64,000 bases of DNA. Origin: Psychroflexus tropicus DSM 15496. Lineage in GTDB: Bacteria; Bacteroidota; Bacteroidia; Flavobacteriales; Flavobacteriaceae. This document shows positions 56,369 through 61,501 of this stretch, one piece after another. Each line of letters opens with the position of its first letter. The stretch's first letter is position 1. The stretch lies in the NCBI RefSeq assembly GCF_000378765.1, contig NZ_KB905342.1, positions 124,001 through 188,000 on the forward strand, written 5' to 3'. The notes under the pieces are model-generated. The model was not told the DNA's origin, did not search any database, and saw only the letters and a list, made by a program, of their open reading frames with translations. The position numbers were made by a program, and so were the translations under genes.

Positions 56369-56833
56369 TTATTCATCATACCACTCAAACACATACTTTG
56401 TATCATAATCCACTTCAAACTTTTTTAAAAACAATAAATGCTCTTCTCTAAAAGATTGCTTTTTATGATGTTCTGGCTGATTCAACACATACTTGACTAC
56501 TCGATCTATATGAGATTTGGAATAAGAGAATGCTCCAAAACCTTTCTGCCAGCAGAATTTTCCTTTGATAAATTCCTTTTCATTTATCCACTTCGAAGAA
56601 CCTGATTTCACCTGTTCCATCAACTTAGATGGCGATATATTAGGATGCATTCCGATAAAGATATGTGTATGGTCTGGATTACAATAGATAGCATAAGTTT
56701 TACAATTATGATGAGTTACAATCCCACACATCACCTTTTCTAATTCTTCCCTAAAAGATTCTTTAACGAAGTTTTGCCTTCCTTTTACGGAAAAGACAAA
56801 TTGAATGTATAATTGCGTGTAGGTATTTGCCAT
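56369..56833 (-). CDS. IS200/IS605-type Y1 transposase (REP-associated)
   Basis: A 154-residue HUH endonuclease of the TnpA type. The metal-binding pair is H55-T56-H57 in C-N-P-D-H-T-H-I-F, and the likely nucleophile is Tyr115 in R-V-V-K-Y-V-L-N-Q-P-E-H-H. G-A-F-S-Y-S-K-S-H-I-D precedes it, as in the family. These enzymes nick single-stranded DNA next to short hairpins. No tnpB partner and no IS200-style ends are seen. Instead the gene is embedded in about sixteen palindromic units, the closest (56335-56357) 12 bases beyond its stop. That context is what defines RAYT/REP systems. All catalytic residues appear intact. Confidence 0.88.
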   Translation of the reverse strand: MANTYTQLYIQFVFSVKGRQNFVKESFREELEKVMCGIVTHHNCKTYAIYCNPDHTHIFIGMHPNISPSKLMEQVKSGSSKWINEKEFIKGKFCWQKGFGAFSYSKSHIDRVVKYVLNQPEHHKKQSFREEHLLFLKKFEVDYDTKYVFEWYDE

Positions 56834-57402: not shown

Positions 57403-58485
57403 CTACTCACTGATGATTTTATGCTGATGACTGATGGATTCTTCATGAATCGCCTTTAGGATTTTGGTGATGAATTCTTCACTCAAATTATGCTCTTCTC
57501 CAGCGGCGATCATCCGGTCTAAAATAAAATTCCAGCGTTTGGTCTGAAGAATAGCCACATTGTTTTTCTTTTTCAGAGCTCCAATTTCATCGGCAATACC
57601 CATACGTTTTCCCATCAGATCAATCAACTGATGATCTACAACATCTATTTTGGTTCTTAAGGTCTGGAGCTTATTCTGAAAGGCAGTCGCTTCGGTAAAC
57701 TCTTTCCTCATCTTAAGATCAATTGTCATCTGGTCTAAAGCTTTTGGAGTAATTTGCTGCTTAGCATCACTCCAGGCATTATCTGGATCGAAGTGGGTTT
57801 CGACCATGATGCCATCAAAATTAAGATCTAGCCCAGTCTGGCAGATGTCAAAAATAATATCACGACGTCCAGCAATATGAGAAGGATCTAAGATGATAGG
57901 CAAATCAGGGTATTCGGTCTGTAAATCAATAGCAATTTGCCATTCTGGATTGTTTCTGTATTTGGTTTTTTCATAAGTAGAAAAGCCCCTGTGGATGACT
58001 CCTAAGTTTTTGATGTTCGCATCATAAAGTCGTTCTACAGCTCCTAGCCAAAGGGAAAGGTCTGGATTAACAGGATTTTTGACCAACACGGTTTTATCGG
58101 TTCCATTCAGCGCATCGGCGATCTCCTGAACTATAAATGGACTTACTGTGCTTCTTGCTCCAATCCACAATACATCGATGTCTGCCTTCAACGCCAATTC
58201 TACGTGGGTTTTATTGGCAACCTCTGTTGCTAGCTTCATGCCAGTTTCGGCTTTAGCAGTTTTTAGCCATTCTAAGCCTATAGCGCCTACACCTTCAAAA
58301 TTTCCTGGTCTGGTTCTTGGCTTCCAGATACCTGCGCGCATTACGCTGGTATCGGTATCTTTTAACTGCTGCGCTATCTTAACGACCTGCTCCTCGGTTT
58401 CTGCACTACATGGGCCAGCAATCACCAAAGGGTGCTCCAAATTTAAAGCTTCTAACCATTGGCGCTGTGTGTTGTTAATTTCCAT
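57403..58485 (-). CDS. bifunctional DAHP synthase/chorismate mutase type II
   Basis: A 360-residue fusion. Residues 1-260 are a KDPS-type 3-deoxy-7-phosphoheptulonate synthase: V-I-A-G-P-C-S-A-E-T, M-R-A-G-I-W-K-P-R-T-R-P, D-V-L-W-I-G-A-R-S-T and I-L-D-P-S-H-I-A-G-R-R. Residues about 270-360 are an AroQ chorismate mutase (L-R-T-K-I-D-V-V-D-H-Q-L-I-D-L-M-G-K-R-M). It catalyses the first step of the shikimate pathway and the branch step from chorismate to prephenate, and is usually allosterically linked. It starts 4 bases after the tyrA stop as the last gene of the Phe/Tyr operon, so attenuation at the operon head would also limit total chorismate flux. Confidence 0.95.
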   Translation of the reverse strand: MEINNTQRQWLEALNLEHPLVIAGPCSAETEEQVVKIAQQLKDTDTSVMRAGIWKPRTRPGNFEGVGAIGLEWLKTAKAETGMKLATEVANKTHVELALKADIDVLWIGARSTVSPFIVQEIADALNGTDKTVLVKNPVNPDLSLWLGAVERLYDANIKNLGVIHRGFSTYEKTKYRNNPEWQIAIDLQTEYPDLPIILDPSHIAGRRDIIFDICQTGLDLNFDGIMVETHFDPDNAWSDAKQQITPKALDQMTIDLKMRKEFTEATAFQNKLQTLRTKIDVVDHQLIDLMGKRMGIADEIGALKKKNNVAILQTKRWNFILDRMIAAGEEHNLSEEFITKILKAIHEESISHQHKIISE

Positions 58486-58489
58486 AATC

Positions 58490-59344
58490 TTACTTGTTTA
58501 AAATTCCGTTTAAAATTGGTTTTAATGAATTGACTTCAGCCAGCTGCTGATGTATATCTGAATAATTTTCGATTTCAAGTTGTCTTTTAAAAACCTTCAA
58601 ATTCTCAATATAACCTTCTAAAGCCTGAGCTACTTCTTCACGATTTTCTTTAAAAATAGCGGTCCAGGTGACAGGGTTAGATTTAGCCAGCCTTACCGTG
58701 GAAGCAAAACCACTACCAGCCAAATCAAAAATAGTTTTATCGTTCTGCTCCATTTGAAGCACCGTTCTCCCCAGCATAAAAGAACTAATGTGAGACAAGT
58801 GAGACACATAAGCCAAATGCTTATCGTGACCTCTCGCTGTCATATACTTCAATTTCATATGTAAAGGCTCTACCAATGCTTTGGCGCGTTTATGAAGCTC
58901 TGGCCTTGTAGCCTCAACATCACAAAAAATCATGGTCTTATCTTCAAATAAGGAAGCAAATGCAGCTTCCGGGCCAGAAAACTCTGTTCCGGCGATGGGA
59001 TGAGCTGCTAAGAACTGATCGCGTTTGGGGTGCTTTGCTATGGCTTCACAAAGCAGACCTTTGGTGGATCCCATATCGATCACCAAAGCTTTGGAGTGGA
59101 CTTGGTTTAATATATCCTGAATCACTTGAGCTGACTTATCTACGGGTATAGAGACCACTACAACATCCATTTCTGAAATCTGACCATCCTTTAATACATT
59201 TTCGATAATTCCCAATCGCAGGGCTTTCTTTTCATGTTCAGGATTATTATCAACCCCAAAACGCTTAAAAGAAGGAAAGTTCAATTTTTGAGATAAAGCA
59301 AAAGACCCTCCAATAAGTCCTAAACCAACAATAGCTACATTCAT
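58490..59344 (-). CDS. tyrA: prephenate dehydrogenase
   Basis: A 284-residue NAD(P)-dependent enzyme converting prephenate to 4-hydroxyphenylpyruvate for tyrosine. The Rossmann start is M-N-V-A-I-V-G-L-G-L-I-G-G-S-F. D-M-G-S-T-K-G and A-A-H-P-I-A-G-T-E-F-S-G-P (the active-site histidine region) follow, then S-H-L-S-H-I-S-S-F in the helical C-domain. I chose the ATG at 59344: it gives the exact family N-terminus and a 4-base ATGA overlap with the aminotransferase stop. The longer in-frame reading from 59404 would add 20 unlikely residues. There is no ACT domain, so tyrosine control is probably through transcription. Confidence 0.94.
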   Translation of the reverse strand: MNVAIVGLGLIGGSFALSQKLNFPSFKRFGVDNNPEHEKKALRLGIIENVLKDGQISEMDVVVVSIPVDKSAQVIQDILNQVHSKALVIDMGSTKGLLCEAIAKHPKRDQFLAAHPIAGTEFSGPEAAFASLFEDKTMIFCDVEATRPELHKRAKALVEPLHMKLKYMTARGHDKHLAYVSHLSHISSFMLGRTVLQMEQNDKTIFDLAGSGFASTVRLAKSNPVTWTAIFKENREEVAQALEGYIENLKVFKRQLEIENYSDIHQQLAEVNSLKPILNGILNK

Positions 59345-60501
59345 ACGGCTTTTGGTTTTAAAATTCTTTGTTTGCACACGTTGAGCTCCTCTTCGGAAAC
59401 GCAAAGTGAAAATCGAAGATACTTTGCGCCATTAGAGCCGAAAACCGTTCCCGGAGTCACAAATATGTCACGATCGTAGAGCAATTCATCCGCGAGTTCT
59501 TCCGCAGTATGCTCAGAATTAATTTTAGCCCAGACGAATAAACTTACGGCATCCGTATTGACACTTAAATCTAACGACTCGCAGATGTCCCACACGATGG
59601 CTCGACGTTTCTTATAGACGTCGTTTTGAGCTTCAAACCAATCTAAATTCAATTTTAAGGCTTTAGTAGCTGCCTTCTGAATGGGAAAAAACATCCCGCT
59701 GTCCATGTTGCTTTTCACTTTGAGTACTGCTGAGACAAATTCAGAATTACCGACTAGAAAGCCCACACGGAAGCCGGCAAGGTTAAAGGATTTACTTAGG
59801 GAATTCAACTCGAGACAAACCTCTTCTGCTCCCTCTAATTGAAAGATTGAGAATTTGTCTTCAGTCAGAACCATGCTATAAGGATTGTCGTTGACTAAAA
59901 GAATATCATTAGACTTCGCAAATTGAATCAATTCCTGAAGCTTTTTCGAATTCACAGGTTCACCAGTAGGCATATTAGGATAATTGATCCACATGACTTT
60001 GACGTTTGATAAGTCAAGCTTTTGCAGGGCTTCAACATCTGGATGCCAAGATTTTGCTTCTACCAAATCATAGTAAAGCAGTTCTGCATTCAACAATTTA
60101 GTAGCGGCCTGATAAGTTGGATACCCAGGATTGGGAACCAGCACCTGATCGCCTTCGTTTAAAAAAGCCATAGAAATCAAAGCAATACCCTCTTTGGAAC
60201 CCATCAAAGGCAAGACTTCCTGATCTTGATCCACAGTAACACCATAATGGGTTGAGTAAAAATTGCACATCGCCTCACGAAGTTCATCAAGTCCTTTGTA
60301 AGCTTGGTACTGATAAGCCCCCGGAGCCTGAGTGGCTTTCATCAACTCTTCGACGACCTCATCTGGCGGAGCCAAATCCGGGCTTCCTATACCTAAGTTG
60401 ATGATTGGCTTGCCTTGTTTCTTAAGCTGTGCCACTTCCCTCAGCTTTTTACTGAAGTAGTATTCTTTGGTTTCCTGAAGTCGGTTGGATACTGAAATCA
60501 T
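59341..60501 (-). CDS. class I PLP-dependent aminotransferase
   Basis: A 386-residue fold-type I aminotransferase. It has N-L-G-I-G-S-P-D-L, the cofactor-phosphate region M-G-S-K-E-G, N-P-G-Y-P-T-Y, W-I-N-Y-P-N-M-P-T-G-E-P and the Schiff-base lysine in S-L-S-K-S-F-N-L-A-G-F-R-V-G. In this operon it most likely aminates phenylpyruvate/4-hydroxyphenylpyruvate or prephenate, closing the route to Phe and Tyr. The sequence also resembles LL-diaminopimelate-type enzymes, so the exact substrate is inferred from position. It overlaps pheA and tyrA by 4 bases each (ATGA). Confidence 0.92.
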   Translation of the reverse strand: MISVSNRLQETKEYYFSKKLREVAQLKKQGKPIINLGIGSPDLAPPDEVVEELMKATQAPGAYQYQAYKGLDELREAMCNFYSTHYGVTVDQDQEVLPLMGSKEGIALISMAFLNEGDQVLVPNPGYPTYQAATKLLNAELLYYDLVEAKSWHPDVEALQKLDLSNVKVMWINYPNMPTGEPVNSKKLQELIQFAKSNDILLVNDNPYSMVLTEDKFSIFQLEGAEEVCLELNSLSKSFNLAGFRVGFLVGNSEFVSAVLKVKSNMDSGMFFPIQKAATKALKLNLDWFEAQNDVYKKRRAIVWDICESLDLSVNTDAVSLFVWAKINSEHTAEELADELLYDRDIFVTPGTVFGSNGAKYLRFSLCVSEEELNVCKQRILKPKAV

Positions 60502-61322
60502 GACTTTCCACTTTTATATTGACCTACACAGGTCGGATTGATACTTATTTTTGATAATTCTGAAAATGCCTTCTGAAAATGAATCGGATTAGAAAAACTC
60601 ACATCCACAATGAAGGAATACCTCCATATATCGTTAGGGATAGGAATACTTTGAATTTTTGATAGATTTAAGTGATGCTCGGCCATCGTATTCAATACCT
60701 TAGCAAGACTCCCCGATTCGTGATCAATTTCAAACTGAATGGTTGCTTTGTTAACTTCTGCTTGAATCTCTACCTGATTTTCAATGACGACAAACCGGGT
60801 TTCATTCAGGCTATTGTTCTGAATATCTTCCACAATAACACTTAAATCAAAAAGTTCTGCTGTTCCTTTTGGAACCAAAGCGCCCACGCCAAAGATTTGT
60901 TGCTGGGCAATAATTTGAGCTGGAAGCGCTGTATCCACATCTTCAATCAGATTGAGATGAACCTGCTCTGAAAAAAAATTACTGCATTGATGAAGCGCCA
61001 TTTGGTGGGACCTTACCTCAAGCAAATCTGATAATTTCTGACCGGGAAGTGCCACTAAGTTATGACTGATATTTATATAATGCTCTGCAGTAATTTGGAG
61101 CTGATGATCCAAAATAAGTCTGTAATTGGGCAGTATGCTTCCTGCAATCGAATTTTCTATAGCCATCACGGCCTTATGAGCTTCTCCTGAAACTACGGCC
61201 TGGGTCAATCGTTGAAATGTAGTACACTCCAAGACCTCTACATCCTCGATTTCAAAAAGCTCGGTAAGAGCTTTGTAATGGTTAGATCCTTTAATTCCTT
61301 GTATGGCGACTTTATTTCTCAT
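60498..61322 (-). CDS. pheA: prephenate dehydratase
   Basis: A 274-residue enzyme converting prephenate to phenylpyruvate. The N-terminal PDT domain starts K-V-A-I-Q-G-I-K-G-S-N-H and has M-A-I-E-N-S-I-A-G-S-I-L-P-N-Y and N-E-T-R-F-V-V-I. A C-terminal ACT domain at about 195-274 (E-S-G-S-L-A-K-V-L) is the phenylalanine feedback site. It lacks a chorismate mutase domain, which sits in the last gene of the operon. The ATG at 61322 is five bases after the T-run of an intrinsic terminator, so expression depends on read-through of that attenuator. Confidence 0.95.
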   Translation of the reverse strand: MRNKVAIQGIKGSNHYKALTELFEIEDVEVLECTTFQRLTQAVVSGEAHKAVMAIENSIAGSILPNYRLILDHQLQITAEHYINISHNLVALPGQKLSDLLEVRSHQMALHQCSNFFSEQVHLNLIEDVDTALPAQIIAQQQIFGVGALVPKGTAELFDLSVIVEDIQNNSLNETRFVVIENQVEIQAEVNKATIQFEIDHESGSLAKVLNTMAEHHLNLSKIQSIPIPNDIWRYSFIVDVSFSNPIHFQKAFSELSKISINPTCVGQYKSGKS

Positions 61323-61325
61323 AAA

Positions 61326-61355
61326 CTAAAAAAGCCTCGTATAAAACGAGGCTTT
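61326..61355 (-). terminator. attenuator terminator directly before pheA
   Basis: The stem AAAGCCTCGT/ACGAGGCTTT (61355-61346 with 61340-61331 on the minus strand) has a 5-base loop. The stem runs into six T residues (61333-61328), and the pheA ATG is at 61322. Confidence 0.92.
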
Positions 61356-61384
61356 GTATATTTTGACACTGAATTTATTTCATA

Positions 61385-61447
61385 TCAACCTCGTTTCGCT
61401 GGAATAGCAAAATAAAAGTTGTAATAAAAGTAAAAACGAGCTGACAT
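61385..61447 (-). CDS. Phe/Tyr-rich leader peptide of the aromatic operon
   Basis: A 20-residue ORF from ATG 61447 to TGA 61385. It reads MSAR, then FYFYYNFYF, then AIPAKRG: eight aromatic residues in a run of nine (four Phe, four Tyr). This composition, its place between a good promoter and a terminator in front of pheA, and base-pairing segments at its ends identify it as an attenuator leader. It senses both end products of the operon through charged tRNA-Phe and tRNA-Tyr. It has no function as a protein. It is far too short to appear in routine gene prediction. Confidence 0.9.
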   Translation of the reverse strand: MSARFYFYYNFYFAIPAKRG

Positions 61448-61472
61448 ATGTTCTATTATAATGGACTAAATT

Positions 61473-61501
61473 AAAATTTATTTTGAATAAACAAGTTCAA
61501 A
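61473..61501 (-). promoter_or_regulatory. promoter of the aromatic amino acid operon
   Basis: On the minus strand TTTG (61501-61498) is followed after 17 bases by TAAATTTT (61480-61473), seven of eight matches to TAnnTTTG. The predicted transcript starts about 20 bases before the leader-peptide ATG. Confidence 0.65.

Follow-up and report, generated by a model that had tools for sequence, protein, structure and literature searches.

How is the aromatic operon of Psychroflexus tropicus DSM 15496 controlled? A preliminary description of a 64,000-nucleotide stretch of this genome (contig NZ_KB905342.1, positions 124,001 to 188,000; hereafter the window) proposed that a leader-peptide attenuator precedes four genes on the minus strand – pheA, an aminotransferase gene, tyrA, and a gene for a DAHP synthase-chorismate mutase. 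Pfam matches confirmed the identity of each gene:

60498–61322, minus strand: pheA, prephenate dehydratase with an ACT domain
59341–60501, minus strand: class I/II aminotransferase
58490–59344, minus strand: tyrA, prephenate dehydrogenase (start at 59344 used; the ORF is readable from 59404)
57403–58485, minus strand: DAHP synthase fused to chorismate mutase type II

Downstream of the operon lies an ORF (56369–56833, minus strand) that presumably encodes an IS200-like transposase, which it resembles.

The region between pheA and its upstream neighbor contains the following elements, given with the evidence on which each rests:

61466–61473, minus strand: putative -7 promoter box of the Bacteroidota type, TAATTTAG (sequence)
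61385–61447, minus strand: leader peptide ORF MSARFYFYYNFYFAIPAKRG, 20 codons, with control codons 5–13 (sequence and relatives)
61434–61440, minus strand: CTCGTTT (codons 3–5), the segment 1 of the preliminary description; can pair with segment 2 here but is not conserved
61406–61421, minus strand: segment 1, the conserved 5' arm of the protector, CAACTTTTATTTTGCT (codons 9–14; folds, relatives, and pair counts)
61389–61396, minus strand: segment 2, AAACGAGG (codons 18–20; script check and pairing statistics among relatives)
61344–61351, minus strand: segment 3, CCTCGTTT, both the 3' arm of the antiterminator and the 5' arm of the terminator (pair counts)
61328–61355, minus strand: intrinsic terminator with a stem of 10 pairs, 61355–61346/61340–61331 (terminator scan, folds, and covariation)
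61340–61335, minus strand: segment 4, ACGAGG, inside the terminator stem
61333–61328, minus strand: the six T residues of the terminator (script check)

The 20-codon ORF was found by script where it had been described, at 61447–61385 on the minus strand, with the aromatic run FYFYYNFYF at codons 5–13. A terminator scan likewise recovered the six-T terminator (61355–61328), which ends five bases before the pheA ATG at 61322. Since the scan returned 7 such sites in 5 kb versus 4.4 expected, a terminator alone is not rare in this DNA.

To place the locus among its relatives, we collected 20 pheA loci from the window's genus, the window included (20 of 27 genomes matched), and added the 80 top-ranking of 576 named matches in GTDB genomes. 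An aromatic mini-ORF lies upstream of pheA in 98 of these 100 loci, the two others being L051 and L072, which has only 30 upstream bases. Under a strict rule – an ATG-initiated mini-ORF with at least six F/Y/W in nine codons and a terminator after it – 98 of the 99 loci with enough upstream DNA passed versus 0 of 990 dinucleotide shuffles; the 99 take in the window's own locus and a few duplicate records, and counts over loci are not independent because the loci share ancestry. Judged against the shuffled sequences, the combination of mini-ORF and terminator before pheA is beyond chance. For pairing statistics six loci with identical leader regions were dropped, leaving 92 leaders. One locus in the collection, L053, comes from a record titled Rhizobium sp. 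MAG and has a Flavobacterium-like pheA and leader, which probably reflects a binning error. At L051 and at a further locus, L180, a terminator-like hairpin directly precedes pheA with no aromatic leader; these are possibly decayed attenuators.

These counts bear on the simplest alternative, in which the hairpin simply terminates transcription of the M24 peptidase gene that lies upstream and the ORF is a chance product of AT-rich DNA. That gene is on the same strand, we saw no other terminator between 61522 and the leader, and each part does arise by chance (the mini-ORF alone in 24 of 990 shuffles). The two parts together, however, appeared in no shuffle and are conserved in 95 of the 102 genera with pheA surveyed below. 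We rejected this explanation, which we consider vanishingly unlikely.

The genus-level survey used a covariance model built from 40 chosen leaders out of 98 and searched 120 genomes, one per genus of the family, with the position of pheA ignored; a few of these genomes, the window's included, had supplied leaders to the model. At an E value of 0.01 or better, 105 genomes had a match (130 matches in total). A pheA match was present in 102 genomes, and in 95 of these the model matched upstream of pheA, on the strand of the gene, at a median distance of 27 nt; in 93 this is the genome's top match. Inspection by eye revealed an aromatic leader with a terminator in five of the seven genomes missed by the model (L217, L218, L219, L220, and L222), while in the remaining two (L216 and L221) pheA is present and no leader was seen by eye. 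Matches away from pheA number 35 and reach at most 51.2 bits; the model also matched 8 of the 18 genomes that lack a pheA match, never above 49.6 bits. We inspected five of the matches away from pheA. L212 is a Trp-rich leader that precedes a DAHP synthase gene, L213 is an aromatic leader where a contig ends, and L211 and L215 appear to be chance matches; the fifth, L214, is described at the end.

For three helices that exclude one another, we counted pairs on an alignment of the 40 chosen leaders, in comparison with shuffles. In the terminator (3:4), 96.7% of cells were paired versus 87.2% when shuffled, with double changes in 8 of 10 pairs and a score of 0.422 versus 0.241. In the antiterminator (2:3), the corresponding values were 85.4% versus 77.6%, double changes in 8 of 9 pairs, and 0.364 versus 0.227. 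Two of the pairings first proposed for the window alone, 3:4 and 2:3, covary among relatives. Across the 92 leaders, with segment 2 sought solely downstream of the last aromatic codon, segment 2 preferred its own terminator over the mean of other-clade terminators in 87; mean pairing energies were -11.65 kcal/mol with the own terminator, -7.88 with foreign ones, and -5.98 for a shuffled segment 2. The 2:3 pairing exceeded 95% of shuffles in only 66 of the 92.

The protector (1:2), in which codons ~9–14 pair with segment 2, is the weakest of the three helices in these comparisons. It was paired in 83.6% of cells versus 76.9% shuffled and scored 0.343 versus 0.232, but its double changes (5 of 9 pairs versus 4.1 shuffled) were equalled in 180 of 500 shuffles, and for the pair counts the helix was drawn, as codons ~9–12 with segment 2, after folds had been inspected. 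In a duplex test 21 of 92 leaders favored it at the 5% level. In 90 of 92 predicted folds, 60% or more of segment 2 is paired with leader codons upstream of it, though which codons varies, and the advantage of the folds over shuffles is only moderate (z averages -1.61 and is below -2 in 31 of 92 leaders). In the ten closest leaders codons 10–14 are identical, third positions included, and codons 15–16, in the loop, vary freely.

The preliminary description had assigned the role of segment 1 to CTCGTTT, and this part of the proposal did not hold. Across relatives the CTCGTTT helix with segment 2 was paired in 40.0% of cells versus 38.1% shuffled, so we rejected it as the conserved protector; the conserved arm is codons ~9–14. 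Within the window, codons 9–14 gave the more stable protector in two of three folded stretches (-17.7 versus -13.8 and -10.6 versus -7.8) and the less stable one in the third (-11.2 versus -12.3).

When the folded RNA of the window includes segments 2 through 4, its terminator is predicted to be more stable than the antiterminator (-20.4 versus -16.7), and the same order was predicted for simulated stalls at codons 5, 9, and 13. Antitermination would accordingly need 2:3 to form ahead of the synthesis of segment 4; if the stretch stops short of segment 4, the predicted fold is indeed 2:3 (-13.8). A further point against the model is that a ribosome stalled at codon 5 is predicted to leave the protector free.

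The placement of the control codons is also conserved. In 92 of 92 leaders the end of segment 2, which was sought downstream of the last aromatic codon, lies 15–23 nt past that codon (mean 18.1, sd 2.0); relative to the end of the stop codon, it ranges from 16 nt before to 7 after (sd 6.1). The distance to the control codons is kept and the distance to the stop is not. Given the usual length of a ribosome footprint, this would fit a mechanism in which segment 2 is left free or covered according to where the front of a stalled ribosome comes to rest. Comparison among relatives shows, at the level of sequence, conserved aromatic codons, three exclusive helices with covariation, and a constant codon-to-segment-2 spacing. 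The locus combines an ORF with end-product codons, a terminator before the first gene, an antiterminator, a protector, and control codons placed such that a stalled ribosome would leave segment 2 free.

We conclude that the element is very probably a ribosome-mediated transcription attenuator that senses Phe and Tyr before the pheA operon; conservation in 98 of 99 loci and covariation in 3:4 and 2:3 support the architecture originally proposed, the reverse of the pattern named beforehand as refuting it (relatives with neither an aromatic ORF nor the alternative pairings). From this architecture we infer the transcription start, stalling, termination, the timing of 2:3, and the response to Phe and Tyr. 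The transcript would start just past the -7 box, whereupon a ribosome would enter the leader ORF. With ample charged tRNA-Phe and tRNA-Tyr, it would reach the stop codon and cover segment 2, and the 3:4 terminator would form. If either tRNA were short, the ribosome would stall in the control codons and open 1:2 (codons 9–14 with 17–20); the freed segment 2 would pair with segment 3 before segment 4 is made, no terminator would form, and the operon would be read. With no ribosome, 1:2 would form and termination would follow. The promoter-like element can be located as the putative box TAATTTAG, 18 bases before the leader ATG (61447) and 18 bases downstream of a CTTG at 61495–61492 (minus strand). 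A box resembling the consensus TAnnTTTG (taken from PMC9723704), with at most one mismatch, occurs in 88 of 92 leaders; as 727 of 1840 shuffles have one too, it is weak evidence for a promoter.

The conserved peptide could instead act by nascent-chain arrest, in which the aromatic peptide itself stalls the ribosome on a small molecule rather than scarce charged tRNA doing so. An Asn common at one column (74 of 92 leaders) and a nearly fixed Phe-Tyr-Phe speak for this reading. The conserved Asn codon, however, sits within the 1:2 stem, so that its conservation is explicable at the RNA level; elsewhere Phe, Tyr, and Trp interchange (column 9 is W in 41, S in 27, Y in 16, and F in 6 of 92), and the trp and his operons of the same genome have mini-ORFs with matching codons. 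We regard peptide arrest as highly unlikely.

Alternative hairpins alone would also fit an attenuator governed by a bound protein or ligand – a TRAP-like protein, a T-box, or a riboswitch. An Rfam search of the window, T-box and riboswitch families included, gave 0 matches at gathering score, and what is conserved is an ORF with codons for the end products of the pathway. We rejected this class of explanation, which appears extremely unlikely. When the threshold was loosened, the two best matches, both on the right strand, were a rimP leader (34.4 bits; gathering 47) and the Phe_leader family, RF01859, the latter matched over its whole model (30.1 bits; gathering 55). Apart from leaders, other sub-threshold matches were mostly to unrelated families, as chance predicts.

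In the enterobacterial pheL/pheA system a leader peptide precedes exclusive 1:2, 2:3, and 3:4 helices with a terminator before pheA, and the control codons of pheL are Phe alone. The proposed attenuator resembles that system (RF01859) in its control codons, exclusive helices, and terminator before pheA, and differs in mixing Phe and Tyr codons, often with Trp, and in heading a four-gene operon that includes tyrA and a DAHP synthase gene. We claim no common descent. Leaders of the ilvGMEDA type offer a precedent for one leader that senses several end products of a shared pathway; those concern the branched-chain amino acids in Proteobacteria.

We also looked for the leader beyond the sampled close relatives. 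All 26 further loci of the family (L101–L126, two of them repeats) carry an aromatic leader. Among 65 more pheA loci picked from longer lists (L129 of the family, the others from other families), 37 have a strict aromatic leader and 31 of these also a terminator by our rule, versus 3 and 0 of 650 shuffles. The more distant pheA genes among the 65, defined afterwards by a profile E value above 1e-60, have no leader (0 of 16; L155–L167, L170, L190, and L191). Among the 49 non-distant loci, 12 lack a strict leader; of these, L146 has a GTG-initiated leader, and the leaders of L179 and L182 are shorter. Counting against the attenuator, L051, L216, and L221 carry pheA with no leader, as do loci outside the family. 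The pheA profile matched nothing in 119 of the 168 genomes that made up the class sample. At L127, L128, and L130 an aroA-like gene, identified by eye, closely precedes pheA.

Four loci in genomes placed outside the class (L151–L154; G158, G091, G181, and G040) have a pheA of the close type together with an aromatic leader, and family members for three of the four (L158, L159, and L160) have a distant pheA and no leader. This distribution suggests, from sequence comparison, that the operon was transferred together with its attenuator.

At four other loci – L134, L140 (f9), L141 (f5), and L189 (f70) – the 360 bases upstream of pheA contain two aromatic leader ORFs in series, and a separate hairpin and T run comes after each; at L189 the first of the two ORFs has five rather than six aromatics in nine codons. 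By eye, we read these as tandem attenuators of the same specificity. Tandem attenuators are described for Salmonella mgtCBR, where two leader ORFs lie in series (PMC3641672); as presented there, the two respond to different signals, whereas both leaders are aromatic at the four loci here.

The leaders differ in their Trp codons: 44 of the 92 distinct leaders have one and the window's leader has none. We compared this difference with the complement of DAHP synthase genes (PF00793) in 42 genomes. Nine genomes of the window's clade have three such genes versus two in the other 33, and the third gene of the window's genome encodes a second DAHP synthase-chorismate mutase (L203, 8950–10029, C2), upstream of which we saw no attenuator by eye in this genome and four relatives. 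G020, which is 96% complete and has a Trp-less leader, stands alone among the 42 in having no trpA match. Either a second DAHP synthase or the lack of trpA accompanies 10 of 22 Trp-less and 0 of 20 Trp-bearing leaders (Fisher p 0.0006), an association that apparently rests on only two independent events. The other 12 Trp-less leaders have neither change, which weakens a strict rule that the leader's Trp codon follows metabolism; a class II DAHP synthase, found in 0 of 42 genomes, does not explain these leaders. In G444 (L212), which has no pheA match, the leader MTNNNTWWSNSKFYLKR contains WW and precedes a lone DAHP synthase-like gene.

It is possible, if somewhat doubtful, that an ancestral Bacteroidota aromatic leader was retuned codon by codon to the end products of the DAHP synthase it controls, with some lineages stacking two. 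Phe, Tyr, and Trp codons would then occur together where the controlled DAHP synthase is the sole one; Trp would have been dropped in the window's clade, with its second DAHP synthase, and in G020, with no trpA match, and doubled in G444. We treat this as a lead rather than a result, for which the above are hints.

The mechanism is classical and the pheA element has been partly noticed before. A study of Flavobacterium psychrophilum (PMC9723704, 2021) reported strong clues to attenuation by leader peptides ahead of amino-acid operons, with 5' elements upstream of pheA and hisG that are present in other Flavobacteriaceae genera. Its pheA element, like ours, is structured, lies upstream of pheA, and has no Rfam matches; the available text does not specify its peptide, codons, alternative pairings, or leader-bearing operons. 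We found leaders in other Flavobacterium species as well. The question raised in the preliminary description, whether such a leader has been described in this phylum, is thus answered in part: a pheA 5' element is on record there, and its codons and pairings were not found in the available text of that study or elsewhere in the literature searched. Small ORFs reminiscent of leader peptides appear in an account of Bacteroides thetaiotaomicron (PMC7366714), and a pheA motif is listed for Actinobacteria (PMC2864571). A literature search that took in few subscription journals and preprints returned no description of the leader beyond PMC9723704 and no report of its codon content, pairings, near family-wide spread, tandem copies, or retuning.

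These findings indicate that aromatic biosynthesis in Flavobacteriaceae regularly comes with classical leader-peptide attenuation, which also occurs in many other Bacteroidota. Such control is only briefly mentioned for Bacteroidota in the literature found. Translation initiation in this phylum departs from Shine-Dalgarno (PMC9723704). Because leaders occur naturally both with Trp and without it, and in one or two copies, the way in which leader codons track changes in the pathway is open to test.

Further candidate leaders were seen by eye. In the window's own genome, a WWW mini-ORF, MFQKINNSWWWSVLRQTS, with a terminator-like hairpin and T run lies before trpE (L204, 5970–6026, C3), and an HHH mini-ORF, MKNLNLHHHISNTL, with a terminator-like hairpin and T run lies before hisG (L210, 1209–1253, C2); we read these as a Trp leader and a His leader, respectively. 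A search for ilvD in this genome found none. The fifth inspected match away from pheA, L214 (G490), has a mini-ORF, MKRQFFNIIFAVIIVIISQL, and a terminator upstream of ilvE-ilvD-like genes, and is a possible branched-chain (Ile/Val) leader.
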